From Verrucomicrobiota bacterium (lineage in GTDB: Bacteria > Verrucomicrobiota > Verrucomicrobiia > Limisphaerales > Fontisphaeraceae), in contig JBAXGN010000015.1 in the NCBI GenBank assembly GCA_037139415.1, positions 1 to 60,614 of the forward strand: a stretch of 60,614 nucleotides of DNA, written 5' to 3'. Numbering within the stretch: position 1 is the stretch's first letter; every line of letters starts with the position of its first letter. Shown here piece after piece: positions 2,927 through 51,988 of the stretch. Made by a program: the position numbers and the translations under genes. The notes under the pieces are model-generated. The model was not told where the DNA came from and searched no databases. It worked only from the letters and a program-made list of their open reading frames with translations.

Positions 2927-2971
2927 GTAGGGTTACACCCTATTGTGCGGCGACTGCCCAGGGCGTAGTGT
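2927..2971 (+). promoter_or_regulatory. Palindromic stress-regulon promoter P2 (perfectly symmetric variant)
   Basis: GTAGGGTTACACCC at 2927-2940 continues as TATTGT instead of CATAGC. The palindrome becomes TAGGGT-TAC-ACCCTA, perfectly symmetric because the right-arm C is T, matching the left-arm A. After 19 nt comes TAGTGT (2966-2971). The gene at 3013 follows. Confidence 0.7.
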
Positions 2972-3012: not shown

Positions 3013-4224
3013 ATGAAGAATAATGTAAAAAGCAGTAAACTGGCTAAAACTTTAAAGGAAATGGGATGGCTGATCGCCTGCGGCGCCTTGGGGTTTAATG
3101 CACTCGCCGCAGAACCACCTTCCCATGAACAATTTCGCGCAAAGCAACGATCGGTATTCATCATTGACATGCCGGTCAAGGATTCGCAAAACCAAAAACT
3201 GGGGCGGATCACGGATCTCGCCCTGGACTTGGAACAGGGACGCTTGGTGGAGGTGCTCGTCACCTCAGGCGGCTTTCTGGGTTTTGGCCAAAGGACTGTC
3301 GCCGTGCCACCCGGAGCATTTACGCGCGACGCAGCAGGTAATGGATTCCACCTGAACGTGGACCGGGAGATGTACCAGGCCGCGCCAGATTTCAAAATAT
3401 CAAAGTGGGCCGAGGAATGCCAGAGTTTGCCCGTGGCGAAAAATTATCGTTTCTTCGGTCAGGAACCATATTTCGCCGCCGACGGCGCGAATACCAAGTC
3501 TGGCAACACGGACACCGAGCCGTTAGGCTATGTCCAAAGCGCCAGCAAACTACTGCACTTCCCCGTCAGAAACCTGCAAAACGAGCCGCTTGGGGTCATC
3601 GACACCTTCCAGTGCGACCTGACGAGTGGCCGGGTCTTCCACCTGATCGTCCTATCGGCCGGATTTCCCCAAACCAGGAGCGTCATTCCGGCGAGTGCGC
3701 TACGCTTCAATGCCGCTCACGACGCGCTGCAACTGGATATGACTCTGCAGGCGTTCAAAAACGAGCCGCGGTTCAAGTGGACCGATCGTGACAGTGGGGA
3801 CTTCCGGCAGGAAACTTACTCCAATGCGAAAGTGGCGGCTAATGATGGGGTTAATACGCGACAAAATGTTCATGAAGGGACCGTTAACAGCTATATTCCG
3901 CTCGGGCAGGGTGCCAGTTTTGCCGATGTGGACATCACCTACCGGATTTATGCGGCTATGCGGGCCGACGTCAGCCTGTCACAAAACGCCCAGAACGTGG
4001 AGGTCGGCACCCTCAACCGCCGAATTACCCTGCGCGGACATGTCAACACAGCCGCGGGGAAACGGGTCATCGGCGAAATCGCAGGCAAGATTGGGCGACC
4101 GGAGAACGTGAGTAACCTGCTGGAAGTGAGGCTGGATCCAGGCACGATTAACTTGGCTGACCAAGAGGCCAGTCAGAATCGAGATGCTTCATTCTTAAAG
4201 AAGAAATACATCGGCGACAAATAA
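3013..4224 (+). CDS. Exported protein with two PRC-barrel regions and a C-terminal BON-like domain
   Basis: This 403-residue protein starts with a Sec signal peptide (hydrophobic LIACGALGFNALA, predicted cleavage near ALAA-EPPS). Residues about 48-100 (FIIDMPVKDSQNQKLGRI) and 175-235 (FPVRNLQNEPLGVID) look like PRC-barrel beta-barrels, small surface-binding modules. Residues about 315-380 (ITYRIYAAMRADVS, ITLRGHVNTAAGKRVIGEIA) resemble a BON domain, which associates with membranes and phospholipid and is common in osmotic-stress proteins. The domain calls come from motif resemblance. Its own promoter P2 lies 86 nt upstream. It probably acts in the periplasm or on the envelope; the ligand is unknown. 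Confidence 0.75.
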   Translation: MKNNVKSSKLAKTLKEMGWLIACGALGFNALAAEPPSHEQFRAKQRSVFIIDMPVKDSQNQKLGRITDLALDLEQGRLVEVLVTSGGFLGFGQRTVAVPPGAFTRDAAGNGFHLNVDREMYQAAPDFKISKWAEECQSLPVAKNYRFFGQEPYFAADGANTKSGNTDTEPLGYVQSASKLLHFPVRNLQNEPLGVIDTFQCDLTSGRVFHLIVLSAGFPQTRSVIPASALRFNAAHDALQLDMTLQAFKNEPRFKWTDRDSGDFRQETYSNAKVAANDGVNTRQNVHEGTVNSYIPLGQGASFADVDITYRIYAAMRADVSLSQNAQNVEVGTLNRRITLRGHVNTAAGKRVIGEIAGKIGRPENVSNLLEVRLDPGTINLADQEASQNRDASFLKKKYIGDK

Positions 4225-7026: not shown

Positions 7027-7072
7027 TGGGGTCAACACCCCATAGCGATCAGATGGCCTCGGCGCGTATTAT
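7027..7072 (+). promoter_or_regulatory. Palindromic stress-regulon promoter P3
   Basis: TGGGGTCAACACCCCATAGC (7027-7046) is the 16-nt palindrome variant (TGGGGT.AA.ACCCCA). TATTAT (7067-7072) follows after 20 nt. The inferred start near 7079 lies downstream of the longest possible ORF start (7073), which supports the later ATG at 7190. The 155 nt between the upstream lipoprotein stop and this site hold nothing recognisable. Confidence 0.7.
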
Positions 7073-10900: not shown

Positions 10901-11429
10901 CGTCGGGGTGGGCAGTGTTTTCTGGATCGAACTGCCATTGACTTCAGTACCAAAACTTGAGGTTGCAAGCGCTGATTTCATGATCGTTGACCAGGTGCCA
11001 TCGCCAATCGGCACACGGCAGCGTTCCTTGCTCTATGTCGAGGATAATCCGGCAAACATGAAGCTGATCGAACAACTCATCGCGCGATATCCGAACATTC
11101 GGCTGCTAGCCGCGGCAAATGCAACGCTCGGCATCGAGATGGCACGTGCCTCTCAGCCGCAGGTAATCCTGATGGACATCAACCTGCCGGGCATAAGCGG
11201 GGTCGAAGCGCTCAAAATTCTGCGCAAAGACCCGCTGACGGCGCACATCCCTATCATTGCCCTCAGTGCCAATGCGATGCCCCGCGACATCGAAAGGGGG
11301 CTAAAGTTAGGCTTTTTCCGCTACCTCACCAAACCCATCAAGGTTAACGAGTTTATGGGGACGCTGAATGAGGCGATGGAGTTCTCGGAAAAACACCGAA
11401 AAACCCATAATGGAGGATCCCTGCCATGA
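7998..11429 (+). CDS. Hybrid histidine kinase with five PAS domains and a receiver
   Basis: This protein of 1143 residues is a soluble multi-sensor kinase. Four near-identical PAS/PAC units of 142 residues (about residues 43-610) are followed by a divergent fifth PAS (about 620-740), a HisKA region with the phospho-acceptor His in MSHELRSPLNAIL, an HATPase domain (NLLSNAIKYN, DTGEGLAP, GTGIGLVV), and a receiver with LYVEDNPAN and the acceptor Asp in LMDINLPG. The PAS units are arranged A-B-A-B because of an exact 852-bp duplication. No membrane segment is seen, so the signal is probably cytoplasmic (redox, light or small ligand). ATG 7998 is used because AGGGGGG lies 8 nt upstream; an in-frame ATG at 8037 is possible. 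Its stop overlaps the next start (ATGA). Confidence 0.92.
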   Translation: MRCKSNTEYGGIDMKQKAILDGAPGAVGNVTEVRREEVLLEAGALQSAIFNSANFSSIATDAKGVIQIFNVGAERMLGYAAADVMNQITPADISDTQEVIARAKALSVELGTSITPGFEALVFKASRGIEDIYELTYIRKDGSRFPAVVSVTALRDAQGGIIGYLLIGTDNTARKQAEAALLKAGALQSAIFNSANFSSIATDAKGVIQIFNVGAERMLGYAAADVMNKITPADISDPQEVIARAKALSVELGTPITPGFEALVFKASRGIEDIYELTYIRKDGSRFPAVVSVTALRDAENAIIGYLLIGTDNTARKQAEAALLKAGALQSAIFNSANFSSIATDAKGVIQIFNVGAERMLGYAAADVMNQITPADISDTQEVIARAKALSVELGTSITPGFEALVFKASRGIEDIYELTYIRKDGSRFPAVVSVTALRDAQGGIIGYLLIGTDNTARKQAEAALLKAGALQSAIFNSANFSSIATDAKGVIQIFNVGAERMLGYAAADVMNKITPADISDPQEVIARAKALSVELGTPITPGFEALVFKASRGIEDIYELTYIRKDGSRFPAVVSVTALRDAENAIIGYLLIGTDNTARKQIEADQKQLAQRLRDHQFYTRSLFESNIDALMTTDPSGIITDVNKQMEALTGCTRDELIGAPFKNYFTDPERAETSIKLVLSDKKVTDYELTARARDGKETVVSFNATTFYDRDRRLQGVFAAARDVTERKRLDHVLQEKNVELENSKFTAEKANLAKSDFLSSMSHELRSPLNAILGFAQLMESASPLPTAAQAENIAQILKAGWHLLKLINEVLDLAVVESGKVSLSTEPVSLGEVISECQAMMEPQAQQRGICTNFPRFDTPIFVKADRTRLKQILINLLSNAIKYNKEQGTVVVNCTLSTAERIRISVADTGEGLAPEKLAQLFQPFNRLGQEASSVAGTGIGLVVSKRLAELMEGVLGVESSVGVGSVFWIELPLTSVPKLEVASADFMIVDQVPSPIGTRQRSLLYVEDNPANMKLIEQLIARYPNIRLLAAANATLGIEMARASQPQVILMDINLPGISGVEALKILRKDPLTAHIPIIALSANAMPRDIERGLKLGFFRYLTKPIKVNEFMGTLNEAMEFSEKHRKTHNGGSLP
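8125..9803 (+). repeat. 852-bp tandem duplication (PAS A-B unit, two copies)
   Basis: A 426-bp PAS unit is present four times, at 8125, 8551, 8977 and 9403. Copies 1 and 3 appear identical apart from their first bases, as do copies 2 and 4, whereas copies 1 and 2 differ at many synonymous sites. This shows an old 426-bp duplication followed by a very recent 852-bp duplication (8125-8976 and 8977-9803). The frame is kept throughout. Confidence 0.93.
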
Positions 11430-13027
11430 TCAGTTCATCCGACATCCTGCAAGCCAGTATTCTGATTGTTGATGATCAGGATGCCAATGTGGTACTGTTG
11501 GAGCGAATACTGCGAGGCGCTGGCTACGTTTCCATTGAGACAACCAGTGATCCTCACGCGGTCTGCATCCTGCATCGCAAGAACCGCTACGCGCTGATCC
11601 TGCTCGATCTGCAGATGCCCGGCATGGATGGCTTTCAAGTCATGGAGGGACTGACCGCCATCGAAGCCAACGGCTATCTGCCAGTGCTGGTGATCACTGC
11701 GCAGCCGGATCACAAACTGCGTGCGCTCAAAGCCGGGGCAAAGGATTTCATCAGTAAACCGTTTGATCTCGCAGAGGTATTGCTGCGCGTGCGCAACCTG
11801 ATCGAAGTTCGCCTGTTGCATCGGGAAGCGGAGGCACGGACGGAACAGGCGGAGCGGCAGTTTATCCAAGCACAAAAGATGGAAGTGATTGGCCACCTGG
11901 CCGCCGGCGTGGCTCACGATTTTAACAACATCCTGATGGTCATCCTGGGGCAAAATGAGATGATCACCGCGATGCTGGGTGCGGACCATCCGCTACTTAA
12001 AAAAACCGAGCAAATCCGACATGCGGCAGAACGCGCTGTTGGGTTGACCCGGCAACTGCTCATCTTCAGCCGCAAAGAAACGGTGCAACCGGTGGTGCTC
12101 GAACTCAATCTGGTGTTGAAAGATTTGGCGGAGATGTTGCGTCGGCTGATTGGCGAAAATATCGAATTGGTAATTATTCCAGGAAAACAAATTCACCGCG
12201 TCAAAGCCGATTCTGGCCATGTGGGGCAGGTGCTCATGAACCTGGCTGTCAATGCTCGTGATGCCATGCCTAACGGTGGCAAGCTCACGATCGCCACCGA
12301 AAATGCGACGCTGGATGAAAACTACACACGTATGCATCCGGGTGCAATTCCCGGCGATTACGTGATACTTAGTGTCAGCGACACTGGAACCGGCATGACC
12401 GAAGAAGTCAAAGCACGCCTGTTTGAAGCATTTTTTACCACGAAACCCAAGGGCACAGGTACTGGTTTGGGCCTGGCGATCTGCCAGACCATCGTTCAAC
12501 AATCCGGTGGCCACATCAGTGTTCATAGTGAATGGGGCAAAGGCACAACCTTCAAGGTATATTTTCCGCACGGCAAGCAGACGCGGGAGGTCGCAACCAG
12601 AGCGAGCCTGACCGGGCCGCCGCCACGCGGAATGGAAACCTTGCTGTTTGTGGAAGATGATCCGTTCGTGAGGCATCTGGCCTGTGAGGTGTTGGAAGCA
12701 CAAGGCTATTCCGTGTTACGCGCTGGTAACGGCCAGGAAGGATTGCATATGGTTCACGGCCACAAGGGATCACCGATCCGTTTGGTGGTCACCGACGTCA
12801 TCATGCCACTGATGGGCGGAAAAGTGATGGTGGAGTGGCTGAAAACAATTTATCCCGGTCTGAAAATCCTCTTCACATCGGGATACACCGATCATGCAAT
12901 TGCGCAACTGGATACACAGGAGCCGGGAGTTGCATTTCTGCCGAAACCTTACACTCCAGCCGACCTCGCCCGCAAAGTGCGCGCGATGCTGGATAATTCT
13001 CAAGCGCCCATCACGTCGTCCACATAG
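11426..13027 (+). CDS. Receiver-histidine kinase-receiver hybrid protein
   Basis: This 533-residue soluble protein has an N-terminal receiver (residues 11-125; ILIVDDQDAN, acceptor Asp in LLDLQMPGMDG), a short coiled linker, a HisKA domain of the NtrB-like type (GVAHDFNNILMVILGQ), an HATPase (NLAVNARDAMPNGG, DTGTGMTEEV, GTGLGLAIC), and a second receiver (about 410-525; LFVEDDPFV, acceptor Asp in VVTDVIMP). Both receivers keep their acidic pair and acceptor Asp. The 4-bp ATGA overlap with the upstream kinase gene indicates translational coupling, so the N-terminal receiver may accept phosphate from that kinase. There is no DNA-binding output domain. Confidence 0.93.
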   Translation: MISSSDILQASILIVDDQDANVVLLERILRGAGYVSIETTSDPHAVCILHRKNRYALILLDLQMPGMDGFQVMEGLTAIEANGYLPVLVITAQPDHKLRALKAGAKDFISKPFDLAEVLLRVRNLIEVRLLHREAEARTEQAERQFIQAQKMEVIGHLAAGVAHDFNNILMVILGQNEMITAMLGADHPLLKKTEQIRHAAERAVGLTRQLLIFSRKETVQPVVLELNLVLKDLAEMLRRLIGENIELVIIPGKQIHRVKADSGHVGQVLMNLAVNARDAMPNGGKLTIATENATLDENYTRMHPGAIPGDYVILSVSDTGTGMTEEVKARLFEAFFTTKPKGTGTGLGLAICQTIVQQSGGHISVHSEWGKGTTFKVYFPHGKQTREVATRASLTGPPPRGMETLLFVEDDPFVRHLACEVLEAQGYSVLRAGNGQEGLHMVHGHKGSPIRLVVTDVIMPLMGGKVMVEWLKTIYPGLKILFTSGYTDHAIAQLDTQEPGVAFLPKPYTPADLARKVRAMLDNSQAPITSST

Positions 13028-13083: not shown

Positions 13084-15570
13084 ATGGGAAAAGCGTTCAC
13101 GCATCAGAAACTGACGACCTTCACGCGCGTGGTGGAATTCATGGCGTTATACTTCGTCGGGGGATTGATCGGCAAAGAGACCACGTTTCTTTCTGGGAGC
13201 ATGGCCTTGGTCTGGCCGCCGGCGGGCATTGCGCTTGCCGCCATCCTACTGTTCGGATACCGGTTTTGGCCAGGCGTGGTTTTTGGTGCGGTGCTTTTGT
13301 CGTTCATGAACGGGCTACCGCTGGGAGTTTTCACGCTCGGAACGGTCATTGGCAATACGATCGGGGCAATCGCTTGTGCTTACCTGCTTAAGAAGTTCAT
13401 CACCTTCGACAATGCCATGGAGCGCACTCAGGATGTGGTCGGTTACGTTGCCTTGGCATGTTTCCTGGGTTCGACGGTCAATGCGGTGTTCAATGTGGTG
13501 AGCCTGGCGTACAGCGGTGCGGTGGCGTGGGACGATTTATTTGGAAACACCCTGGAGTGGTGGGTGCCGAATGTGCTGGGCAGTTTGGTTGTGGCGCCAT
13601 TGATCATCACGTGGGCAACGCCATCCACCACGCGCTGGAATGCCCGGCTGATAACCGAAGCCATCTTCTGCGGTGCTGGGTTGGTGGGCGGCACGTTGAT
13701 CTCTTTCAATTCCTGGTATGTGTACGGGATTCAAAATTACCCGATGGCCTATCTGCCTTTTCCTTTTCTTGTCTGGAGCGCATTGCGGTTTGGTCAGCGT
13801 GGCGCAACCACGGGAACCTTGCTCGTGGCGGTGCTCGCCATCTATTCCTTGCTCCATGGGACCGGACCATTCGTTACGAATTCCGTTAAGGACAGCTTGA
13901 TGCTCATGGGCAGCTACATAGGCATTCTGGCAATCACCAACATGCTGCTAGCCGCCGCTGCCGCGGCCCGACGCACCGCGGAGCGGGCGGTTTCGGAAAG
14001 CGAAAAACGCTTTCGTGCCGTGGTGGAAAACCAGACTGATTTGATTTGCCGCTTTAATCCCGATGGATGCCTCACGTTTGTCAATGACGTATTCTGCCAG
14101 TCCCATGGTAAAAACAGTGCTGAATTACTCGGCACAAATTTTTTTCAAACTCTTTCCGATCCGCATGCTGCCTTGGCGTTAAACTACATCAATTCATTGC
14201 CAGCGGATGAATCGGCCGTATCGTTCGACCTCAGCTCGCAGGTGATGGCTGGTCAGGTAGTATGGCAGCAATACCGGGTTAGGCGGCTGTTTCAAGAGCA
14301 AGGCGACACGCGCGAGTATCAAGCAGTGATTCAAGACATCACCAAGCGCAAACAACTTGAAAGCCAGTTGTTACAATCTCAGAAATTGGAAACGGTCGGC
14401 AGACTCGCGGGCGGGGTGGCGCACGAATTCAACAGTATCATGACAGCCATCATCGGCCAGAGTGAATTGCTCCTCAAGGATCTTCCTGCGGGAAGTCTCT
14501 GGTGCAACAACGCAACCGAAATCCGCAAGGCCGCTGAGCGCGCGGCGATTTTGACACGGCAGCTTCTGGCGTACGGACGCAAACAAATGCTGCAGCCTGA
14601 AATTCTCGACCTGAATACCGTCCTCGCCGGCATGGAAAGCACCCTGCGCCACTTAATGGGCCGCGGCACGGAAGTGAGCCTGGCACCCGCCGTTGGGCTT
14701 AAAGCAGTAAAGGCGGACGCTGGGCAGATTGAACAGGTGATCATTAACTTGGCCATCAACGCTGCCGATGCCATGCCCAAGGGTGGCGCACTCACTCTTG
14801 AAACTGCCAACGTCACGCTGAATGAGGAATATGTCAGCCACATTCCAGAATTGAAGGCGGGAGAATATGTGATGCTCGCCATCACTGATACCGGCACCGG
14901 CATGAGCGAGGACGTCAAAGCGCGTGTCTTCGAACCCTTTTTTACGACTAAGGGCGTTGGTCAGGGAGCGGGATTGGGATTGCCCACCTGTTACGGCATC
15001 ATCAAGCAAAGTGGCGGCCATATCAGCATTCATAGCGAGCTTGGGCGGGGTACGACAGTCAAAATTTATATACCGCCTGTGGAACTACAAACGTCGCGTT
15101 CCGGTCAGCGTCTTGCGGTGCCTGATTTAACGCGTGGGACGGAAACCATTCTGCTGGTCTTGGATGATCTTGCCTTGCGTGAAATGGCGGCGGCAATGTT
15201 AAGCAGGCTGGGTTACACGGTTTTCGTGGCTGCCAATGGCACGGAAGCCTTAAGCTTAGAACGACTGGCTGACCTCGAGCGCATAGATTTATTGTTCACC
15301 GAGGTCCAGATGCCGCAAATGAGTGGCAAAGAATTGACTGAACGTGTGCTGGCGTTGCATCCACAGACCCGGATTCTTTTCACTTCCGGTGACACCGAAA
15401 ATGCCCGTATCCAGCCAGGCTCACATATTAAAGGCGCGGGATTTCTACAAAAACCGTTCACGCCCTCCGCGCTGGCCCTCAAATTGCGGGAAATGCTGGG
15501 TGAATCGGATATGCTGAAATCGGATCCTGTGGTTACAACCTCCGGTAGCCATGGAGACTCGTTGGGGTGA
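13084..15570 (+). CDS. MASE1-PAS hybrid histidine kinase with Asp-to-Glu receiver
   Basis: This 828-residue membrane kinase begins with a MASE1-type region of about eight membrane segments (residues 15-300; LVWPPAGIALA). It then has a PAS domain (FRAVVENQTDLICRF), a HisKA domain (GGVAHEFNSIMTAIIGQ), an HATPase (NLAINAADAMPKGG, DTGTGMSED, GAGLGLPTC) and a C-terminal receiver. The receiver is unusual. The phospho-acceptor position reads LLFTEVQMPQMSG, with Glu where the other receivers here have Asp, and the acidic pair reads LVLDD. It may therefore mimic the phosphorylated state. The gene follows the previous kinase after 56 nt. Its stop codon lies inside promoter P4. Confidence 0.92.
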   Translation: MGKAFTHQKLTTFTRVVEFMALYFVGGLIGKETTFLSGSMALVWPPAGIALAAILLFGYRFWPGVVFGAVLLSFMNGLPLGVFTLGTVIGNTIGAIACAYLLKKFITFDNAMERTQDVVGYVALACFLGSTVNAVFNVVSLAYSGAVAWDDLFGNTLEWWVPNVLGSLVVAPLIITWATPSTTRWNARLITEAIFCGAGLVGGTLISFNSWYVYGIQNYPMAYLPFPFLVWSALRFGQRGATTGTLLVAVLAIYSLLHGTGPFVTNSVKDSLMLMGSYIGILAITNMLLAAAAAARRTAERAVSESEKRFRAVVENQTDLICRFNPDGCLTFVNDVFCQSHGKNSAELLGTNFFQTLSDPHAALALNYINSLPADESAVSFDLSSQVMAGQVVWQQYRVRRLFQEQGDTREYQAVIQDITKRKQLESQLLQSQKLETVGRLAGGVAHEFNSIMTAIIGQSELLLKDLPAGSLWCNNATEIRKAAERAAILTRQLLAYGRKQMLQPEILDLNTVLAGMESTLRHLMGRGTEVSLAPAVGLKAVKADAGQIEQVIINLAINAADAMPKGGALTLETANVTLNEEYVSHIPELKAGEYVMLAITDTGTGMSEDVKARVFEPFFTTKGVGQGAGLGLPTCYGIIKQSGGHISIHSELGRGTTVKIYIPPVELQTSRSGQRLAVPDLTRGTETILLVLDDLALREMAAAMLSRLGYTVFVAANGTEALSLERLADLERIDLLFTEVQMPQMSGKELTERVLALHPQTRILFTSGDTENARIQPGSHIKGAGFLQKPFTPSALALKLREMLGESDMLKSDPVVTTSGSHGDSLG

Positions 15571-15608
15571 ACACCCCATAGCGGCTTGATAGCTTCAACG
15601 CCTATTAT
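15563..15608 (+). promoter_or_regulatory. Palindromic stress-regulon promoter P4 (overlaps a stop codon)
   Basis: TGGGGTGAACACCCCATAGC (15563-15582) has perfect 7-bp arms TGGGGTG/CACCCCA around AA. The TGA stop of the upstream kinase (15568-15570) lies inside the left arm. TATTAT (15603-15608) follows after 20 nt. Confidence 0.72.
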
Positions 15609-17412: not shown

Positions 17413-17457
17413 GTAGGGTTACACCCCATAGCGAAGCCGGGCCCGCTAATGCATTGT
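17413..17457 (+). promoter_or_regulatory. Palindromic stress-regulon promoter P5
   Basis: GTAGGGTTACACCCCATAGC (17413-17432), then 19 nt, then CATTGT (17452-17457), one base off the TANNGT consensus. It lies 132 nt upstream of the PRC-barrel gene at 17565. Confidence 0.68.
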
Positions 17458-17564: not shown

Positions 17565-18344
17565 ATGCTAAGCACGGCGAAAATGCTAAAGGATTATAAA
17601 TTGAACAGCCTCGATGGGGAGATCGGGAAGGTTGAAGAATTCTATTTTGATGACCGGCACTGGACCATTCGTTATCTGGTGGCCGATACCGGGAACTGGC
17701 TTACGGGCAGGCAGGTGTTGATATCTCCGTATGCGCTGGGCACCGTGAATCGCGAAGCGCAACACATCGCCATTGATTTAACGCAAAAGCAGATTGAAGA
17801 GGGTCCCTGCTTGAACAGCGACAAGCCCGTCTCGCGCCAATTTGAGGAGGCCTACCATGGGCATTACCGGTGGCCGATGTATTGGGGCGGGCCGTACGTG
17901 TGGGGGGCGAATCCCCACCTTGTGCGTGACCGGAAAAAATGGCGGAAAACAACCCCGGATGAGAAACCATGGGATCCCTATTTGCGCAGCACTGACGATG
18001 TGAATGGTCATCTCATCGAAGCCACCGATGGGGAGATCGGCCACGTGGAGGATTTTATCATTGATGACGAAACGTGGGCGATTCGGTATCTAATCATCAA
18101 TACCCGCAACTGGTGGCCGGGAAAAAAGGTATTACTTTCACCGCAATGGATTGAGCATGTTAGTTGGAGCCAGTCCAAAGTCTTTGTCAATCTTTGCCGA
18201 GCGACCATCAAGCAGTCACCGGAATTCGTGGCCGAGACGTTGCTGACTCGGGATTATGAGGTCGGATTGCATCACCATTACAACCGCCAAGGATACTGGA
18301 TTGATGAACGACCTGGTATGGCCAAAACCGTTTCCACCTCGTGA
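17565..18344 (+). CDS. Two-PRC-barrel protein (paralogue of 7190)
   Basis: This 259-residue soluble protein has PRC-barrels at about residues 8-82 (LNSLDGEIGKVEEFYFDD, GRQVLISPYALG) and 145-220 (VNGHLIEATDGEIGHVEDFIIDD, GKKVLLSPQW). The linker is rich in aromatic residues (YHGHYRWPMYWGGPYVWG). The layout and many residues match the gene at 7190, so they are duplicates. The start follows an A/C-rich leader (ACAAACATCTATT-ATG) without a Shine-Dalgarno sequence. It is probably monocistronic from P5. The molecular role is unknown; PRC-barrels often anchor partner proteins. Confidence 0.85.
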   Translation: MLSTAKMLKDYKLNSLDGEIGKVEEFYFDDRHWTIRYLVADTGNWLTGRQVLISPYALGTVNREAQHIAIDLTQKQIEEGPCLNSDKPVSRQFEEAYHGHYRWPMYWGGPYVWGANPHLVRDRKKWRKTTPDEKPWDPYLRSTDDVNGHLIEATDGEIGHVEDFIIDDETWAIRYLIINTRNWWPGKKVLLSPQWIEHVSWSQSKVFVNLCRATIKQSPEFVAETLLTRDYEVGLHHHYNRQGYWIDERPGMAKTVSTS

Positions 18345-18428: not shown

Positions 18429-18473
18429 TGGGGTGAACACCCCATAGTCAAGGGGTAGTCCATGGCTTAGGGT
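18429..18473 (+). promoter_or_regulatory. Palindromic stress-regulon promoter P6
   Basis: TGGGGTGAACACCCCATAGT (18429-18448) has perfect 7-bp arms. TAGGGT (18468-18473) follows after 19 nt. The inferred start is about 40 nt before the gene at 18521. Confidence 0.72.
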
Positions 18474-18520: not shown

Positions 18521-18964
18521 ATGGCCAAGCACAATGCAGTCGAGGCGATTTACCAATCCCACGCTGAAGCCGAAGCTGCGGTCAAGGAATTGCAGCGCTC
18601 TGGTTTTGACATGAAGAAACTGTCGATTGTCGGACGCGACCAGCACACGGAAGAACACGTGGTCGGCTTCTACAATGCTGGGGATCGTATGAAATACTGG
18701 GGAAAACTGGGAGCCTTCGGCGGCGGGATGTGGGGGATGATGTTCGGGTCCGCCACCTTTTTGATTCCAGGTCTCGGTCCGTTGCTGGTGACGGGGCCAC
18801 TCGCCGGCTGGATCACCATGGACCGTCTGCCCGAGACCGGCGACCAGGGCTTCTACCTGAAGCAGCAGCTCAATAACAAGCTCATCGAGTACAAGCAATA
18901 CATCGACAAAAACGGCAAAGACCTGCCAGAAGTTCGCAGCTGGAAATGGAGCAACTCCAAATGA
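18521..18964 (+). CDS. Chimera: YflT-like general stress protein N-terminus fused to phosphoketolase C-terminal tail
   Basis: Residues 1 to about 100 form a general stress protein: a YflT-like ferredoxin-fold part (AIYQSHAEAEAAVKELQ, KLSIVGRD), then Gly-rich hydrophobic helices (GKLGAFGGGMWGMMFG, IPGLGPLLVTGPLAGWI). The usual continuation of that family is missing. From about residue 102 (MDRLPETG, YLKQQLNNKLIEYKQYI, DLPEVRSWKW) the sequence instead resembles the extreme C-terminus of xylulose-5-phosphate phosphoketolase. The simplest reading is an in-frame deletion that removed the end of the stress gene and nearly all of a phosphoketolase gene. The product may still insert in the membrane. 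Its stop overlaps the aldolase start (ATGA), as expected if phosphoketolase and aldolase were once neighbours. Confidence 0.8.
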   Translation: MAKHNAVEAIYQSHAEAEAAVKELQRSGFDMKKLSIVGRDQHTEEHVVGFYNAGDRMKYWGKLGAFGGGMWGMMFGSATFLIPGLGPLLVTGPLAGWITMDRLPETGDQGFYLKQQLNNKLIEYKQYIDKNGKDLPEVRSWKWSNSK

Positions 18965-20352: not shown

Positions 20353-20397
20353 GTAGGGTTACACCCCATAGGCACAAACCGGTTGATGAACTAATGT
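20353..20397 (+). promoter_or_regulatory. Palindromic stress-regulon promoter P7
   Basis: GTAGGGTTACACCCCATAGG (20353-20372), then 19 nt, then TAATGT (20392-20397). It lies about 75 nt before the triple-BON gene and just after the transketolase scar. Confidence 0.72.
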
Positions 20398-20446
20398 GTC
20401 TCCTTGATGGCAATTGAATTGCCGTCAAAAACACAAAAAAATCAAA

Positions 20447-21103
20447 ATGAAAACTAATGCGGAATTACAACAAGACGTTCAGGATGCCATCAAATGGCAA
20501 CCGTTATTGAACGCAGCAGAAATTGGTGTGACTGCCAAAGATGGTATCGTTTCACTCACAGGTGTTGTTGACAACTACTCCAAAAAATCAGAAGCGGAAG
20601 ACGCCGCTAAGAACGTAGCAGGAGTCACTGCCGTGGTCGAGAAAATTGAGGTAAGGTTTCCGAACACGTGGAGTAAAACCAACACTGAAATCGCCACAGA
20701 AGTGTTGACTGCTTTGAAGACGCGTTGGGACGTTCCTAACGACAAAATCAAAGTCAAGGTCGAAGCAGGATGGATTACCCTGACGGGTGAATTGAATTGG
20801 AATTACCAAAAGGACGCTGCTGAAGACGCGATCAAGTATCTGATGGGCGTTAAAGGGGTAACGAACGACATCACCATCAAATCAGAAACAAATAACGCCG
20901 TTGAAAAAGCGGCGATTGAAAGTGCGTTAAAACGCAACTGGTCAATAAACGAGAAGGATATTCGTGTGCAGGTATCCGGTCATAACGCAACCCTGACTGG
21001 CAAGGTTGCTTCATGGTATCAAAAGGACGAGGCTGGAAATATTGCCTGGGGTGCCCCTGGTGTTTGGACCGTGAATAATGAATTGGTTGTTGCATGTGCG
21101 TAA
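20447..21103 (+). CDS. Triple BON-domain protein
   Basis: This 218-residue soluble protein has three BON domains: about residues 4-70 (LQQDVQDAIKWQPLLNAAEIGV, GIVSLTGVVDNY), 76-145 (VLTALKTRWDVPNDKIKVKVEAGWITLTG) and 150-215 (IESALKRNWSINEKDIRVQV, NATLTGKVASWYQKDEA). BON modules bind phospholipid or other hydrophobic ligands and are typical of osmotic-shock proteins such as OsmY, but no signal peptide is seen here. The start follows AAAACACAAAAAAATCAAA, with no Shine-Dalgarno. It is probably monocistronic from P7. Cytoplasmic triple-BON proteins are frequent in soil-bacterial stress clusters; the ligand is unknown. Confidence 0.9.
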   Translation: MKTNAELQQDVQDAIKWQPLLNAAEIGVTAKDGIVSLTGVVDNYSKKSEAEDAAKNVAGVTAVVEKIEVRFPNTWSKTNTEIATEVLTALKTRWDVPNDKIKVKVEAGWITLTGELNWNYQKDAAEDAIKYLMGVKGVTNDITIKSETNNAVEKAAIESALKRNWSINEKDIRVQVSGHNATLTGKVASWYQKDEAGNIAWGAPGVWTVNNELVVACA

Positions 21104-21378: not shown

Positions 21379-21423
21379 TGGGGTGAACACCCCATAGCGT
21401 CCGCGAGATTGGCAGGTTACTTT
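21379..21423 (+). promoter_or_regulatory. Palindromic stress-regulon promoter P8
   Basis: TGGGGTGAACACCCCATAGC (21379-21398) has perfect 7-bp arms. TACTTT (21418-21423) follows after 19 nt. The leader to lemA would be about 180 nt, the longest of the set, and contains no convincing gene. Confidence 0.7.
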
Positions 21424-21613: not shown

Positions 21614-22252
21614 ATGATGAAAAAGCCCGGCATTTTTCTTGGAGTCGTTGCGTTGATTGGCGTGTCTGTTTTGATCCTCATCGCTGTCGCGGGTGGAAGC
21701 TACAATCGCCTGGTTAAGCTTTCACAGGGGGTGGACACCCAATGGGCGCAGGTACAAAACGTGTATCAACGCCGCGCGGATTTGATTCCCAACCTCGTCG
21801 CTACCGTTTCCGGCGCAGCAAAGTTTGAAAAATCTACGCTGACGGAAATCACCCAGGCCCGAGCGTCCGTCGGTCAAGTGAAAATGGATTCCACTACCGC
21901 ACCGACCGATCCGGGAAAACTAGCAGCTTTTGATCAAGCGCAGGGACAACTTTCTTCTGCCTTGTCGCGTTTGTTAGTGGTTGTCGAACGTTATCCTAAT
22001 TTGAAGGCAACCGAGAATTTTCGAGAATTGCAGGCGCAACTTGAAGGCACAGAAAACCGCATCAGTGTTGAACGCCGGGACTTTAATGGCGCGGTTCAAA
22101 ACTACAACACGGCCATCAAATCATTTCCTGCAGTTATTTATGCGTCAGCCTTGGGCTTCCAATATAAACCGTATTTTGCCTCCGCGCCCGGCGCTGAAAT
22201 TGCGCCCAAGGTTCAATTCGACTTTGGCAATGTCGTAACTAACAAGCCCTGA
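21614..22252 (+). CDS. lemA: LemA family membrane protein
   Basis: This 212-residue protein has one N-terminal membrane helix (residues 8-28) and the LemA helical domain: YNRLVKLSQGVDTQWAQVQN, YQRRADLIPNLVATV, then RLLVVVERYPNLKATENF and ISVERRDFNGAVQNYN. These are diagnostic. LemA proteins are membrane-anchored four-helix proteins usually encoded next to TPM-domain genes, as here. Their function is not settled, but they are linked to envelope maintenance. ATG 21614 is preferred; a second Met follows directly. The three genes lemA-TPM-TPM are tightly spaced and form one unit from P8. Confidence 0.95.
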   Translation: MMKKPGIFLGVVALIGVSVLILIAVAGGSYNRLVKLSQGVDTQWAQVQNVYQRRADLIPNLVATVSGAAKFEKSTLTEITQARASVGQVKMDSTTAPTDPGKLAAFDQAQGQLSSALSRLLVVVERYPNLKATENFRELQAQLEGTENRISVERRDFNGAVQNYNTAIKSFPAVIYASALGFQYKPYFASAPGAEIAPKVQFDFGNVVTNKP

Positions 22253-22255
22253 TTG

Positions 22256-22993
22256 ATGAAACATTATTGGATCGCTCTGGTTGTGGTATGTTGCTTCCGC
22301 ACTTTTGCGGTTGAAGGGATTCCGCCGTCACCGACTCAATATTTTAACGACTATGCCAAGGTTGTGTCGGCAGCCACCACGGCGCACCTGAACCAAATAC
22401 TTGAAGAATTTGAGCGCCAAAGTTCGGATCAAATTGTGGTGGCAGTATTTCCAAAATTGCCGCCGGATTCCTCGCTTGAAGATTACACGCTCCGGGCATT
22501 TCGGTCGTGGGCGGTGGGTCAAAAAACAAAAAATAACGGGGCCGTACTTTTTGTCTTCGTACAGGATCACAAGCTATTTTTGCAGGTCGGCTACGGATTG
22601 GAAGGTGTTCTACCCGATGCGCTCTGCAAAAGGATTATTGACGACCAAATTTCTCCGCGCTTCAAGGTAGGTGATTTTGACAGTGGACTCACCGCTGGTG
22701 TTCAGGCAATCATCGCTGCGGCCAAAGGCGAATACAAAGGAACCGGTGCTACCGTGGCCGATAATCGAACCTCACACGGAACGGGAAGTTCCTTAATTGG
22801 CATTGGATTGATCGTGTTGATTATTGTTTTTGCTGTATTCAGCAGACGATCAGGAATGTTTTGGCCATGGTTATTACTTGCCAGCAGCGGTACAAGTTGT
22901 GGCAGGGGTGGGGTCGGGGGCAATTCCGGCGGCGGTGGATTCTCTGGTGGCGGTGGCAGCAGTGGCGGCGGTGGGGCGGGAGGTTCATGGTGA
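22256..22993 (+). CDS. TPM-domain (YgcG-type) membrane protein
   Basis: This 245-residue protein has a short signal peptide, a TPM domain at about residues 28-160 (YFNDYAKVVSA, HLNQILEEFERQSSDQIVVAV, NNGAVLFVFVQDHKLFLQVGYGLEG), one membrane helix (LIGIGLIVLIIVFAVF) and a Gly/Ser-rich tail ending GGAGGSW. The Gly-rich tail is typical of bacterial TPM proteins. The domain was described as a phosphatase in plant thylakoids, but the bacterial role is unclear. It starts at the ATG after the TTG at 22253 and follows lemA by 3 nt. LemA and TPM probably act together at the membrane. Confidence 0.9.
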   Translation: MKHYWIALVVVCCFRTFAVEGIPPSPTQYFNDYAKVVSAATTAHLNQILEEFERQSSDQIVVAVFPKLPPDSSLEDYTLRAFRSWAVGQKTKNNGAVLFVFVQDHKLFLQVGYGLEGVLPDALCKRIIDDQISPRFKVGDFDSGLTAGVQAIIAAAKGEYKGTGATVADNRTSHGTGSSLIGIGLIVLIIVFAVFSRRSGMFWPWLLLASSGTSCGRGGVGGNSGGGGFSGGGGSSGGGGAGGSW

Positions 22994-31626: not shown

Positions 31627-31671
31627 GTAGGGTTACACCCCATAGCGAAGGACTTACCAATGTCGTAGAGT
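31627..31671 (+). promoter_or_regulatory. Palindromic stress-regulon promoter P9
   Basis: GTAGGGTTACACCCCATAGC (31627-31646), then 19 nt, then TAGAGT (31666-31671). The inferred start near 31678 is 37 nt before a 41-codon frame, followed by the lipoprotein cluster. Confidence 0.75.
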
Positions 31672-31891: not shown

Positions 31892-32239
31892 ATGGAAAAA
31901 ACAAACAACAACACGGGTTCTTCCCTGAAGGTATTGGCATTAATCCTCTGCATCAGCGCGATGCCGCTGGTTTGCGCAACGGGCTGTTTCACCAGCAGCC
32001 GTTACCAGCAAAGCACGGGCGAATACACGGACGACAGTGGGCTTTCAGCCAGTGTCAAGAAAGCTTTGAACGATGACCAGGTGTACAAGTACGACGGCGT
32101 TAACGTGGTTACGTTTAAAGGTGTGGTGCAATTAAGCGGTTTTGTGGTCTCGAGGGACCAGATGAACCGGGCTGGTGAACTCGCTAAAAAAGTCGGTGGC
32201 GTAAATGAACTCCAAAACAATATCACCGTAAAAGAATAG
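31892..32239 (+). CDS. BON-domain lipoprotein, copy 1
   Basis: This 115-residue protein has a signal peptide with a lipobox-like CATGC near residue 31 and then the head FTSSRYQQSTGEYTDD shared with the genes at 32786 and 34082. The rest is one BON domain (LSASVKKALNDDQ, VNVVTFKGVVQLSGFV, GVNELQNNITVKE). Such OsmY-like periplasmic lipoproteins respond to osmotic or envelope stress. The start has an A/C-rich leader (AATAACAAGAAACATT-ATG). The three copies keep the BON surface nearly unchanged, which suggests recent amplification, possibly for dosage. Confidence 0.85.
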   Translation: MEKTNNNTGSSLKVLALILCISAMPLVCATGCFTSSRYQQSTGEYTDDSGLSASVKKALNDDQVYKYDGVNVVTFKGVVQLSGFVVSRDQMNRAGELAKKVGGVNELQNNITVKE

Positions 32240-32297
32240 GCGCATTACACTAGTAGCAATGCAAAAAACCAAAACAAAACCTAAAAATAAATATAAT

Positions 32298-32744
32298 ATG
32301 AAACAAAAAACCATACTCATTACCTTTCTGGCCGCCGCTGCGTTCGTGGTGGGTTGCAATAAAGAAGAAACCACCGCGCAACAACTCGACAAAGTGAAAA
32401 AGGAAACCAAAGAAGCCGCGCAGGACATGCAGGATTACAAATTCGCACAAAAGGCGGCCTTCGTGGAAAAAATGCAGGGCCAGATGAACGAGATCAACAA
32501 AGATTTGGACCAACTTATGGTCCGCGTCGAAAAGTCCAGTGACGCGGCCAAAGCCGAAGCCAAACCCAAACTTCAAGCCTTGCGCAACCAGGCGGCGAAG
32601 TTGAACCAGCAGCTTGAAGAGGCCAAGAACGCCACGGAGTCCACCTGGGACGACGTCAAAAACGGTTTCAAGAAGGGCTATAGTGAGTTTAAGGACGGGG
32701 TGCAGACGGCGCGCCAATGGGTGAGCGATAAAATCGCTCCGTAA
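32298..32744 (+). CDS. Coiled-coil lipoprotein
   Basis: This 148-residue protein has a signal peptide with lipobox VVGC (Cys near residue 19), then a long, highly charged helix with heptad-like spacing (AQQLDKVKKETKEAAQDMQDY, KLQALRNQAAKLNQQLEEAKN) and an amphipathic end (FKKGYSEFKDGVQTARQWVSDKI). It resembles small apolipoprotein-like proteins that stabilise the envelope, but no family name is certain. ATG 32298 is preferred over 32259 because it places the signal peptide at the N-terminus. It sits between two BON lipoproteins. Confidence 0.8.
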   Translation: MKQKTILITFLAAAAFVVGCNKEETTAQQLDKVKKETKEAAQDMQDYKFAQKAAFVEKMQGQMNEINKDLDQLMVRVEKSSDAAKAEAKPKLQALRNQAAKLNQQLEEAKNATESTWDDVKNGFKKGYSEFKDGVQTARQWVSDKIAP

Positions 32745-32785
32745 ACGCGAAGTAAACAACAGAAACAAACCAGACAAAATACATT

Positions 32786-33136
32786 ATGAAAACAACAACA
32801 GATAAATCAAATCGTTCCTTAAAGGTAGTGGCGTTAATCCTCTGCGTCAGCGCGTTGCCGCTGGTCTGCGGTGTGACCGGTTGTACGACGGGTAGTCGCT
32901 ACCAGCAAAGCACCGGGGAATATATTGATGACCATGGGCTTTCTTCCAGTGTCAAAAAAGCCCTCGGCGACGATCATCAGTACAAATACAACGATGTCAA
33001 CGTTGTCACGTTTAAAGGTGTCGTCCAGTTAAACGGCTTTGCCAACAACAAGGAACAGAAGAGCCGGGCCGGAGACATAGCCAAGAAAGTCGCGGGCGTG
33101 ACCGAAGTGCAAAACAACATCACTGTTAAAGAGTGA
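32786..33136 (+). CDS. BON-domain lipoprotein, copy 2
   Basis: This 116-residue paralogue of 31892 has lipobox GVTGC, head TTGSRYQQSTGEYIDD, and a BON domain (LSSSVKKALGDDHQYKYN, VNVVTFKGVVQLNGF, GVTEVQNNITVKE). The leader (AAACAACAGAAACAAACC ... TACATT-ATG) is A/C-rich. The main differences from copy 1 are in the loop after the third strand (ANNKEQKS in place of VVSRDQMN). Confidence 0.85.
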   Translation: MKTTTDKSNRSLKVVALILCVSALPLVCGVTGCTTGSRYQQSTGEYIDDHGLSSSVKKALGDDHQYKYNDVNVVTFKGVVQLNGFANNKEQKSRAGDIAKKVAGVTEVQNNITVKE

Positions 33137-33232
33137 TCCAGCGTGTCTGCAGAACTTGATGAATCAGGCGCGATAGCGGGGAGATGAACCATCGTGCGTT
33201 AACGCCAAATGCCGAGCAGCAACATAACAATT

Positions 33233-34045
33233 ATGGAAATTCCAATTGTACGACAAGGACATCCCATGACGGGATTGGCGTTGATGCTCTGTGTCGTGAC
33301 CGGCTGCTTTAGCGATACTCGATACAAACAAGGCACGGGAGATAAGCCCAGTCAGGTGACCAGTATCAATAGTGGTCCGCTCATTGGTAGCCAAGGATTG
33401 GTTACTCGGATTGACACTCGTACTGTGCAATCCAAAGTGTTTGAGACTTCCGATTTGCCACAGGCGCTGGTTCTCTCGGTGCATGGAAAGTGCGAATTCT
33501 CCACCAACCACACTTCATTCGCCGTATTGAAAGCCGGTCAGGTCTTTTTGGAAGGGGCCGTCATCCGGACGGGCGAAGGAGCGCGCGCTGATCTATTTTT
33601 CAGGCGCATCGGAACCACCGTCCGTCTGCAAGCGGATACCGAAATCGGACTGGCGAAAATGACTCGAATTATGAACGGCAGCACCCCGGTGTTCGAGACT
33701 TTGTTGGACGTCCGCGCCGGCAGAATCTTCACCGTGGTGCGCTCGCTTGTCGCTGGCAGCACCTTGGAAATCAAGAACGCGGCCGGTCGGGCCGTGGTCG
33801 AGGGCGGCGGCGGCAAAGGCAGGTACATTATTACGGCCGACGGCACGCATGTGACGGATAAAAATTCGGCTGTACCGCTCAAGGTCATTGGGGAAACGGG
33901 CGTGACCATAATTACACCTGGACAGCGATTCAGTGCGAAGGACGGCAAAGTGTTTTCGCTTAACCCTTCGGACGCCGTGCAGGAACTGATCCACTTTGAC
34001 GAACTCGACGCTTTAACGGAGCAATTAATGCCGCCCGAAAAGTGA
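33233..34045 (+). CDS. FecR-like domain lipoprotein
   Basis: This 270-residue protein has a short signal peptide with lipobox VVTGC followed by FSDTRYKQGTGDK, the same head as the BON lipoproteins around it. The remainder is a FecR-like beta domain (FAVLKAGQVFLEGAVIRTGEGARADLFF, TVRLQADTEIGLAKM, LLDVRAGRIFTVV, STLEIKNAAGRAVVEG) ending in helix QELIHFDELDALTEQLM. FecR domains bind partners in the periplasm and often relay signals to sigma factors, but here no ECF sigma gene is adjacent. ATG 33233 (leader CATAACAATT) is preferred over 33209. Confidence 0.8.
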   Translation: MEIPIVRQGHPMTGLALMLCVVTGCFSDTRYKQGTGDKPSQVTSINSGPLIGSQGLVTRIDTRTVQSKVFETSDLPQALVLSVHGKCEFSTNHTSFAVLKAGQVFLEGAVIRTGEGARADLFFRRIGTTVRLQADTEIGLAKMTRIMNGSTPVFETLLDVRAGRIFTVVRSLVAGSTLEIKNAAGRAVVEGGGGKGRYIITADGTHVTDKNSAVPLKVIGETGVTIITPGQRFSAKDGKVFSLNPSDAVQELIHFDELDALTEQLMPPEK

Positions 34046-34081
34046 CGAATAAGTAGTAACCAAACAACAAACAAAAACAGT

Positions 34082-34432
34082 ATGAACCAAACAAAAACAA
34101 ATACGGGCCACTCCTTTAAGGTGTGTGCGTTAATCCTTTGCGTCGGTGCGTTGCCGCTGGTCTGCGGTTTGACCGGTTGTTTCACCGGCACACGCGACAA
34201 GCAAAGCACGGGCGAATACATTGATGACCACACGCTATCGTCCCATGTCAAGAAGGCGCTGGGCGAGGACCAGCTCTACAAGTACGGCGACGTTAATGTG
34301 GTCACGTTCAAGGGTGTGGTGCAGCTAAACGGCTTTGTCAGCACGAAGGACCAGTTGAACCGCGCGGGCGAACTTGCCAAGAAAGCCGAAGGTGTGAAAG
34401 AGGTGCAAAACAACATTACGGTCAAAGAGTGA
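34082..34432 (+). CDS. BON-domain lipoprotein, copy 3
   Basis: This 116-residue paralogue has lipobox GLTGC, head FTGTRDKQSTGEYIDD, and a BON domain (LSSHVKKALGEDQLYKYG, VNVVTFKGVVQLNGFVSTKDQLNRAGELAKKAEG split over the domain, ending VQNNITVKE). The leader is CCAAACAACAAACAAAAACAGT-ATG, with no Shine-Dalgarno. It closes the run of five lipoproteins begun at 31892. A small stem (GTCCAA-CTGA-TTGGAC at 34487-34502) follows the stop by about 55 nt. Confidence 0.85.
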   Translation: MNQTKTNTGHSFKVCALILCVGALPLVCGLTGCFTGTRDKQSTGEYIDDHTLSSHVKKALGEDQLYKYGDVNVVTFKGVVQLNGFVSTKDQLNRAGELAKKAEGVKEVQNNITVKE

Positions 34433-39174: not shown

Positions 39175-39219
39175 GTAGGGTAATACCCCATAGCAAATCA
39201 CGCCCCGTGGGCGTACCGT
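39175..39219 (+). promoter_or_regulatory. Palindromic stress-regulon promoter P10
   Basis: GTAGGGTAATACCCCATAGC (39175-39194) has loop AAT instead of TAC with the arms kept. After 19 nt comes TACCGT (39214-39219). The inferred start is only about 22 nt before the DUF883 gene, the shortest leader of the set. Confidence 0.74.
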
Positions 39220-41499: not shown

Positions 41500-41544
41500 G
41501 TAGGGTTATACCCCATAGCTTCAGGCCGGCTGATCGTGTACTGT
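41500..41544 (+). promoter_or_regulatory. Palindromic stress-regulon promoter P11
   Basis: GTAGGGTTATACCCCATAGC (41500-41519) has loop TAT with the arms kept. TACTGT (41539-41544) follows after 19 nt. It is about 50 nt upstream of the csbD-like gene's A/C-rich leader. Confidence 0.75.
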
Positions 41545-41601: not shown

Positions 41602-41808
41602 ATGAACACACTCGAAATTAAGGGCGACTGGAACATCACCAAGGGTAAGCTCAAACAGAAGTGGGCCAAGCTCACGGATGACGATCTCCAATACATCGAA
41701 GGCAAGCACGATGAACTATTGGGCCGCATTCAGAAGCGCACTGGTGAAACCCGTGAAACGATCGAAAAGGTCATCAAAGAATCCTGCTCATCCTGCTGCT
41801 GTAAATGA
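41602..41808 (+). CDS. CsbD-like stress protein with a cysteine-rich tail
   Basis: This 68-residue protein has the CsbD signature: [21 protein letters not shown], then [21 protein letters not shown] and [10 protein letters not shown]. CsbD proteins are small, helical, and induced by general stress (sigma-B in Bacillus), with unknown molecular function. Unusually, the C-terminus ends CSSCCCK, four cysteines in seven residues, which could bind metal or form disulfides. The start has leader ACAAACCAAACTATC-ATG. It leads the P11 unit. Confidence 0.93.
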
Positions 41809-41845
41809 GCATGGAACGGATAAACGAATATCGAAAGAACCAAAC

Positions 41846-42055
41846 ATGAAAGACCACGTCTATAAACTCATCGAACTCACCGGCACCTCAACCACTTCCA
41901 TTGAGGACGCGGTTGAGAAGGCCATTAAACGTGCGCACAGCACCATCAAGAACCTGGCCTGGTTTCAGGTGGTCGAAACGCGCGGCAATATCACCAAGGG
42001 AAAAGTGGATCACTGGCAGGTGACCATCAAAGTCGGTTTCACCGTGGAAGACTGA
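41846..42055 (+). CDS. Dodecin (flavin-binding)
   Basis: This 69-residue protein reads [24 protein letters not shown], then [20 protein letters not shown] and [16 protein letters not shown], the dodecin fold. Dodecins form hollow dodecamers that bind FMN or FAD pairs between aromatic residues; the Trp in LAWFQV is the stacking residue. They buffer free flavin and limit photo-oxidative damage. It lies 37 nt after the CsbD gene, with leader AAAGAACCAAAC-ATG. Confidence 0.95.
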
Positions 42056-46135: not shown

Positions 46136-46180
46136 GTAGGGTTACACCCCATAGCACCTGCACGGATTATGAGCGATGTT
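46136..46180 (+). promoter_or_regulatory. Palindromic stress-regulon promoter P12
   Basis: GTAGGGTTACACCCCATAGC (46136-46155), then 19 nt, then GATGTT (46175-46180), the weakest -10 match of the set. It precedes the DUF3309 gene by about 105 nt. Confidence 0.65.
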
Positions 46181-46859: not shown

Positions 46860-47261
46860 TCAAAATGAAGCCTTTTCACGGATGCTGATTGATAAGGCGT
46901 TGGAGTTCAGCGGGTGGAACCTGCTTACTGCCTGGAACATCTGCACCGCCCACCCACCGTCACCCGCAGCTTGCGGCTAAGCCGGTCCCGCTGGAACATC
47001 GAGCAATATTTTCAACGTGGGAAAGACGACTTGGGGCTGGACCACTTTGAAGGGCGCAGTTGGTTGGGCTTCCATCACCACTTGGTCATGGCGGTGCTGG
47101 CGTACCTGTTTGTGGTGGTGGTTTTCCTGGACGCAATAAAAACTTCCAGTGTGACGTGGGAGCAAGTGTTGACGAGGATGCGGCCGTGGCTGCTGAAGTC
47201 GGTCGGCTTATGTTTTTGCTGCGGTCGCAAGTTTGAGGATGTGAGCGTTGTTATAACTTAA
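46860..47261 (+). pseudogene. C-terminal remnant of a DDE transposase (IS701/IS4-like)
   Basis: The frame from about 46914 to 47261 has the end of a DDE transposase: SRWNIEQYFQRGKDDLGLDHFEGRSW, split by me only for description, and LGFHHHLVMAVLAYLF. The Glu of RWNIEQ is the third catalytic acid of the family. The N-terminal two thirds, including both Asp residues, are absent and no inverted terminal repeats were recognised. It marks the boundary between the stress block and the region to the right. Confidence 0.8.
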
Positions 47262-51881: not shown

Positions 51882-51988
51882 GGCGGGGAGCGTAAAGGAA
51901 ACCGGCAATCGGAAGAAAGCAAAAAACAAGGCATTGCATTCTCGCATTTCGCTCGACAGCCGGTCGGCGCTGCCGTAAGCCAATCGGC

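Follow-up and report, generated by a model that had tools for sequence, protein, structure and literature searches.

A conserved inverted-repeat motif upstream of stress genes in Verrucomicrobiota as the probable operator of a NarL/FixJ-family response regulator

An island of stress genes with twelve related sites

We analysed a stretch of 60,614 nucleotides from a Verrucomicrobiota genome, the whole of which is henceforth referred to as the window. It contains an island of stress genes in which 12 related sites lie on the + strand. The site under study, P2, occupies positions 2928-2942 (TAGGGTTACACCCTA) and is a perfect 6+3+6 inverted repeat, TAGGGT-TAC-ACCCTA. The initial annotation had observed, correctly, that the right arm ACCCTA makes this copy perfectly symmetric with TAGGGT. 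P2 deviates from the consensus at two points: its right arm is unlike that of the remaining 15-nt copies, which ends ACCCCA, and it is followed by TTG whereas all other 11 window sites continue with TAG. We predict that P2 is a class A operator (defined below), acting on the + strand upstream of a gene that encodes a 403-aa protein with PRC-barrel and BON domains (3013-4224, + strand). Its predicted -10 element, TAGTGT, lies at 2966-2971 on the + strand, 20 nt after the 18-nt motif, and would place the transcription start near 2978.

The sites fall into two classes, and all of them are given in + strand coordinates. Class A, TAGGGT-N3-ACCCYA, has eight members. Besides P2 these are 2362-2376 (-10 TATTGT at 2400-2405; the next ORF, 2493-2906, had no Pfam match), 17414-17428 (before a PRC-barrel gene at 17565-18344; -10 CATTGT at 17452, in which only the A and the T are retained), 20354-20368 (before a triple-BON gene at 20414-21103; -10 TAATGT at 20392), 31628-31642 (before BON genes at 31892-34432; -10 TAGAGT at 31666), 39176-39190 (TAGGGTAATACCCCA, before DUF883 and Phage_holin_3_6 genes; -10 TACCGT at 39214), 41501-41515 (TAGGGTTATACCCCA; -10 TACTGT at 41539) and 46137-46151 (before small membrane ORFs recognised by eye; a weak -10, GATGTT, at 46175). 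Downstream of the site at 41501 are a small ORF at 41603, whose CsbD-like character was judged by eye only, and a dodecin gene at 41678-42055.

Class B, TGGGGT-N4-ACCCCA, has four members. Three of them read TGGGGTGAACACCCCA, with the left arm that had been reported for the 16-nt variants: 15563-15578 (-10 TATTAT at 15603-15608), 18429-18444 (before a YflT-domain gene at 18521-18964; -10 TAGGGT at 18468) and 21379-21394 (before LemA/TPM genes at 21614-22993; -10 TACTTT at 21418). The copy at 7027-7042 (TGGGGTCAACACCCCA; -10 TATTAT at 7067-7072) groups with these 16-nt sites and precedes genes for a PRC-barrel protein and for three histidine kinases. The operator at 15563-15578 overlaps the stop codon of a MASE1 kinase gene, with the TGA inside TGGGGTGA.

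The motif family exceeds what is expected by chance. Within the window, 17 matches with at most two mismatches were found versus 3.8 expected from dinucleotide shuffles. In the genome to which the window belongs, the pattern GGGTN{3,4}ACCCCATA matches 26 times and a reversed-pattern control once.

The island also encodes a hybrid protein that combines a histidine kinase with two receiver domains (11426-13027, + strand). In the window proteins that we scanned, we detected no DNA-binding domain and no DNA-binding regulator. Just past the last motif site, a DDE transposase remnant (46914-47258) lies at the apparent edge of the stress island. At 48714-54742, a Type IIG restriction-methyltransferase gene (PADLOC E 5e-211) is divergent from the gene of an SNF2 helicase that carries DUF3670 and has ZorD and DpdE as its nearest models. 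These two genes are likely a phage-defence pair at the end of the island. The five ORFs that follow them had no clear PADLOC family.

Distribution of the motif and promoter architecture

We scanned the exact 18-mer TAGGGTTACACCCCATAG against 84,980 species genomes and retrieved at least 111 stretches. Of these, 107 have names of the Verrucomicrobiota, Lentisphaerae, Kiritimatiellae, PVC or Planctomycetota type, 3 come from unnamed bacteria and 1 is from Peribacillus. About 7 chance matches to an 18-mer are expected in 257 billion bases. The stretch from Peribacillus cavernae (Bacillota; L143) holds a single exact 18-mer.

When 121 of the 18-mer sites were aligned, the flanks were nearly flat except for a GG before the motif, a C after it and a T-A---T hexamer that starts 20 nt after the motif (T in 85, A in 104 and T in 103 of the 121). 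TAnnnT occurs at an offset of exactly 20 in 77 of 122 homologous sites elsewhere, against a background of 0.6%. Among the window sites, TAnnnT lies 20-21 nt downstream in 10 of 12, and nAnnnT in all 12. Counting both strands of palindromic sites, the -10 is at 20 in 106 of 167 class A sites with a TNN spacer and, in class B, at 20 in 17 and at 21 in 9 of 57. The idea that class B has its -10 at 21 instead of 20 was dropped on this larger number of sites. The two spacer lengths, 3 and 4 nt, come with overlapping -10 distances (20 or 21). Behind the 121 sites with a -10 we collected the first ORFs; 19 sites gave none and 1 duplicate was dropped, leaving 101 mechanically called ORFs, some of them spurious. 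Their starts lie at a median of 46 nt beyond the predicted transcription start.

If the hexamer is a -10 element, the dyad would be centred near -43 and the right half-site would cover the -35 region. An operator over the -35 region with its dyad near -43 is the geometry of a class II activator. Relative to the predicted start, the motif overlaps the -35 region, keeps a fixed distance to the -10 and is accompanied by no -35 consensus. The motif is most likely an activator site in the -35 region.

This architecture bears on two other explanations. In the first, an alternative sigma factor would recognise the motif as its -35 element and TAnnnT as its -10. The fixed -10 distance and the strongly asymmetric conserved flanks would suit such an element, but a gap of 20 nt from the motif end to the -10 and a dyad centred near -43 are unlike a -35 hexamer. 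Moreover, the commonest ORF families near the sites include a GerE regulator (see below) but none that we recognised as a sigma factor. We consider this reading decidedly improbable.

The second explanation concerns RNA. The initial annotation had taken the symmetry, which it regarded as apparently selected, to point to a dimeric binding protein, and had considered an RNA hairpin less likely because the inferred start is downstream. The protein operator is supported, while selection for symmetry is not (see the next section). Because the motif lies upstream of a -10 at fixed distance, it falls outside the predicted transcript; a regulator gene whose family binds DNA as dimers is linked to the sites, and a search of the window for Rfam families returned no match. 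The reverse strand does score as a terminator-like stem at two sites, which would suit an RNA hairpin, a REP-like repeat or an intrinsic terminator belonging to the upstream gene. However, conservation extends to the GG, the C and the -10 and not to a T-run, the asymmetric mismatch is kept and the flanks are otherwise non-repeated. We rejected a hairpin or terminator, and this whole group of readings has barely any likelihood left.

No support for selection of arm symmetry

The initial annotation had proposed that pairing between the arms is kept in different ways in different copies, so that symmetry itself is selected. We examined the arms with both arm letters left free (TNGGGTNNNACCCNATAG) in 387 Verrucomicrobiota genomes. 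The arm-pair tables comprise the first sites listed per genome, which for the genome of the window are 10 of 11 class A and 10 of 12 class B sites. For self-complementary sites, one of the two rows was removed (G332 in class A, G078 in class B). P2 itself falls outside the table, its flank being ATTG.

The 103 listed class A sites comprise 79 with the asymmetric A...C pair, 10 with the A...T pair of P2, 4 with G...C, 5 with C...C and 5 others. Over all rows, 16 symmetric pairs were observed versus 13.2 expected under independent arms (P 0.047), a value helped by two C-G rows that resemble chance matches. The corresponding numbers were 12 versus 11.1 (P 0.46) when only genomes that have the candidate regulator were counted and 14 versus 13.4 (P 0.53) when the right arm was restricted to C or T. 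In class B, G-C pairs make up 20 of 31 rows and 19 of 23 in regulator genomes, where symmetric pairs number 20 versus 18.4 expected (P 0.13). When all class B rows are taken together, P is 0.006, a value that depends on two C...G rows and on a single word present five times in G154. G154 is a regulator-less genome, and its five words, TCGGGT-N4-ACCCTATAG, are probably a different repeat. As independent support, the A...C pair also prevails among the non-seed sites of the 111 related loci, and a T at the P2 position was found in none of the non-seed class A sites with at most three mismatches in these loci. The flanks of the two half-sites differ as well, with GG before the left arm and ATAGC after the right arm.

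Since the A...C pair dominates and symmetric pairs lie near independence, the symmetric form of P2 is a recurrent minor variant of about 10%, that is, ordinary variation, and class A conserves asymmetry rather than symmetry. It is very unlikely that compensated arm changes keep a perfect palindrome under selection. P2 is perfectly symmetric and class B is mostly symmetric, as such selection would predict, but class A is conserved in its asymmetric form and the number of symmetric pairs in regulator genomes is close to that given by independent arms. Changes that disrupt the symmetry are as frequent as those that preserve it, the outcome that the initial annotation had named as contradicting its proposal. 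We favour describing each arm as a degenerate half-site, ACCCYA, in which one letter is preferred per arm. The T in the right arm of P2 would then be one of two tolerated letters, which restores the dyad by coincidence and not by selection. We note that the near-palindromy of a conserved site need not imply selection for symmetry.

A NarL/FixJ-family regulator as the candidate reader

We drew candidates for the protein that reads the motif from the 12 GerE proteins of the genome of the window. The best-scoring of them (GerE 75.7 bits) is a NarL/FixJ-family protein encoded outside the window on the - strand (G000:C161:16283-16960). A class B site is found about 150 bp away from its gene, which follows a KaiB-like gene and a kinase gene. 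Relatives with 60-75% identity over 112-226 aa are present in 12 of the 111 loci picked by the motif, and one further relative, with 42% identity, is in L109. The other 11 GerE proteins were set aside as readers, having given only two weak matches, of one paralog, in L106 and L107. We also clustered the 876 ORFs of the motif-picked loci without the candidate in mind. The five commonest families were BON proteins (18 loci), HisKA_3 kinases with an RsbU_N-like N-terminus (18), ice-binding-like proteins (15), a small lipoprotein-like protein (13) and the candidate regulator (9). None of the other four families is evidently a DNA-binding regulator.

The motif and the regulator co-occur. With an ortholog threshold of E up to 1e-60, 22 of the 387 Verrucomicrobiota genomes have both, 15 have the motif only, 27 have the regulator only and 323 have neither (Fisher P 3.7e-13, which is optimistic because the genomes share ancestry). 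The regulator is thus found in 22 of 37 motif genomes versus 27 of 350 motif-less genomes, and it is present in 16 of 19 genomes with at least two listed sites and in 12 of 13 with at least three. An earlier set of 194 genomes gave the same picture and showed a gap in identity between orthologs (≥51%) and paralogs (≤48%). Several of the 15 motif genomes without a close ortholog resemble chance matches; one of the 15, G276, has four good sites and relatives that are only 42% identical. A strict class A motif is missing from 27 of the 49 regulator genomes.

The sites are also linked to the regulator gene. Twenty regulator-centred regions, which were not chosen blind (mostly the best-scoring orthologs and four from genomes with motif matches), contained 15 strict sites, whereas genome density predicts 0.28. 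Relaxed sites, one or more per region, were present in 15 of these 20 regions, one of them doubtful. Sites lie directly behind the regulator gene in, for example, L250, L252, L255, L257, L259 and L268, and before the kinase-regulator operon in L250, L251, L253 and L121. In a Phycisphaerales chromosome (Planctomycetota), an ortholog with 69% identity (3583088-3583720) has a site 1.3 kb away, at 3585058, with a kinase gene between the two. In the second Phycisphaerales chromosome, L093, we found a relative with no more than 44% identity. The regulator is kept across Verrucomicrobiota and some Planctomycetota.

Response_reg and GerE domains both score above cut-off in the ortholog of L106, and the phospho-acceptor D56 is invariant in 40 of 40 aligned orthologs. 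The HTH of all 40 reads TVEKHR, unlike that of four more distant relatives (TVETHR, TIDAHR or TIATHV), and TVEKHR is a plausible basis of G-rich recognition.

The candidate is very probably the reader of the motif. Alternatively, the motif could be read by a repressor or by another regulator linked to the stress island, with the response regulator merely a neighbour or a fellow member of the regulon. This would account for the motif genomes without a close ortholog, and a regulon member would likewise be linked to the sites. We nevertheless regard it as unlikely. We recognised no enrichment of another DNA-binding family near the sites. The regulator and the motif co-occur and are linked in Verrucomicrobiota, and they are linked in one Planctomycetota chromosome. 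As for a repressor, a site over the -35 region without a -35 hexamer fits activation better.

Kinases and KaiB-like neighbours

HisKA_3 kinases are usually encoded beside the regulator. In 20 of 33 regulator loci, the regulator gene has a kinase gene on its own strand no more than 600 nt away. The N-terminus of the kinase resembles RsbU_N below the Pfam cut-off (22.7 versus 25.5 bits). Tandem pairs of HisKA_3 kinases with this RsbU_N-like N-terminus were observed in L037, L038, L250, L253, L257 and L134, and in several loci tandem pairs directly precede the regulator gene.

The operon in the genome of the window differs from the usual kinase-regulator arrangement, as a KaiB-like gene, a PAS kinase gene and the NarL-type regulator gene are consecutive (L211:8284-10595, on C161). 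Adjacent KaiB-like, kinase and regulator genes are also found in L064 and L256, and KaiB-like genes are near the regulator in L262 and L269. The neighbour gene was rejected as a circadian KaiB equivalog (66.9 bits versus a cut-off of 110).

Regulon and proposed mechanism

The genes behind the window sites encode PRC-barrel (three), BON, YflT, LemA/TPM, DUF883 and dodecin proteins and kinases. For the 101 first ORFs behind sites elsewhere, we counted families from the best 25 of 63 matched: BON 15, OsmC 5, ice-binding 5, CsbD 2, HPr 2, and one each of superoxide dismutase, dodecin, CheB and SPFH. These predicted targets point to a stress and envelope regulon.

We consider it probable (roughly 80%) that a NarL/FixJ-family response regulator uses P2 and the related sites as its operators; it would bind as a dimer at -10-only promoters and activate, rather than repress, stress genes. 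A kinase would sense stress and phosphorylate the regulator at the conserved D56. The phosphorylated dimer would bind two inverted ACCCYA half-sites, centred near -43, over the -35 region. RNA polymerase may then be recruited at TAnnnT promoters without a sigma-70 -35, in a class II-type manner for which the observed spacing provides the geometry. Stress and envelope genes would be switched on, as would, in many cases, the kinase-regulator operon; sites are present at both kinds of target. The two spacings argue against a single dimer as reader, since it would be unusual for one dimer to accept both 3 and 4 nt.

A bolder reading can be offered only tentatively, and we think it more doubtful than the operator model itself. 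The system might be a master stress switch of Verrucomicrobiota and their relatives in which RsbU_N-like HisKA_3 kinases converge on one NarL-type regulator in the role of sigma-B or EcfG. The asymmetric 3-nt and symmetric 4-nt operators might then reflect distinct dimer states, such as a homodimer and a complex with a partner protein, and define two sub-regulons.

Comparison with known systems

The proposed mechanism is of a known kind. Like the NarL/FixJ regulators VraR, NarL, DevR/DosR and RcsB, the candidate has a receiver and a GerE HTH with an invariant Asp 56, and its cognate kinases are of the HisKA_3 type. Its best solved relative is VraR (5hev, E 1e-42). Inverted-repeat operators are usual in the NarL/FixJ family; GGTAGGGT-N3-ACCCCATAG matches no operator known to us. 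The best NCBIfam models for the regulator and for the C161 kinase are MctR (NF052445) and MctS (NF052443), respectively. Membership was rejected for both, the regulator scoring 200.7 bits versus a cut-off of 300 and the kinase 171.7 bits versus a cut-off of 700. The own-genome operon recalls two-component systems linked to KaiB/KaiC, but most regulator orthologs have no KaiB nearby and a clock function is not implied.

In the titles and abstract beginnings of the literature searched, we found no description of the motif or the regulator, and the operator, the regulator and the regulon seem undescribed there. To our knowledge, little is known about gene control in Verrucomicrobiota, Kiritimatiellae, Lentisphaerae and Planctomycetes. 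A triple of regulator, operator and regulon recognisable in two phyla from sequence data would make stress regulons predictable in uncultured genomes and provides a testable promoter of fixed architecture.

The targets of SigB/RsbU in Bacillus and of EcfG in alphaproteobacteria are similar, comprising CsbD, YflT, dodecin, Dps/ferritin, OsmC, BON and SOD proteins. Unlike in the SigB and EcfG systems, the output here is apparently a DNA-binding response regulator acting at -10-only promoters and not a released sigma factor.
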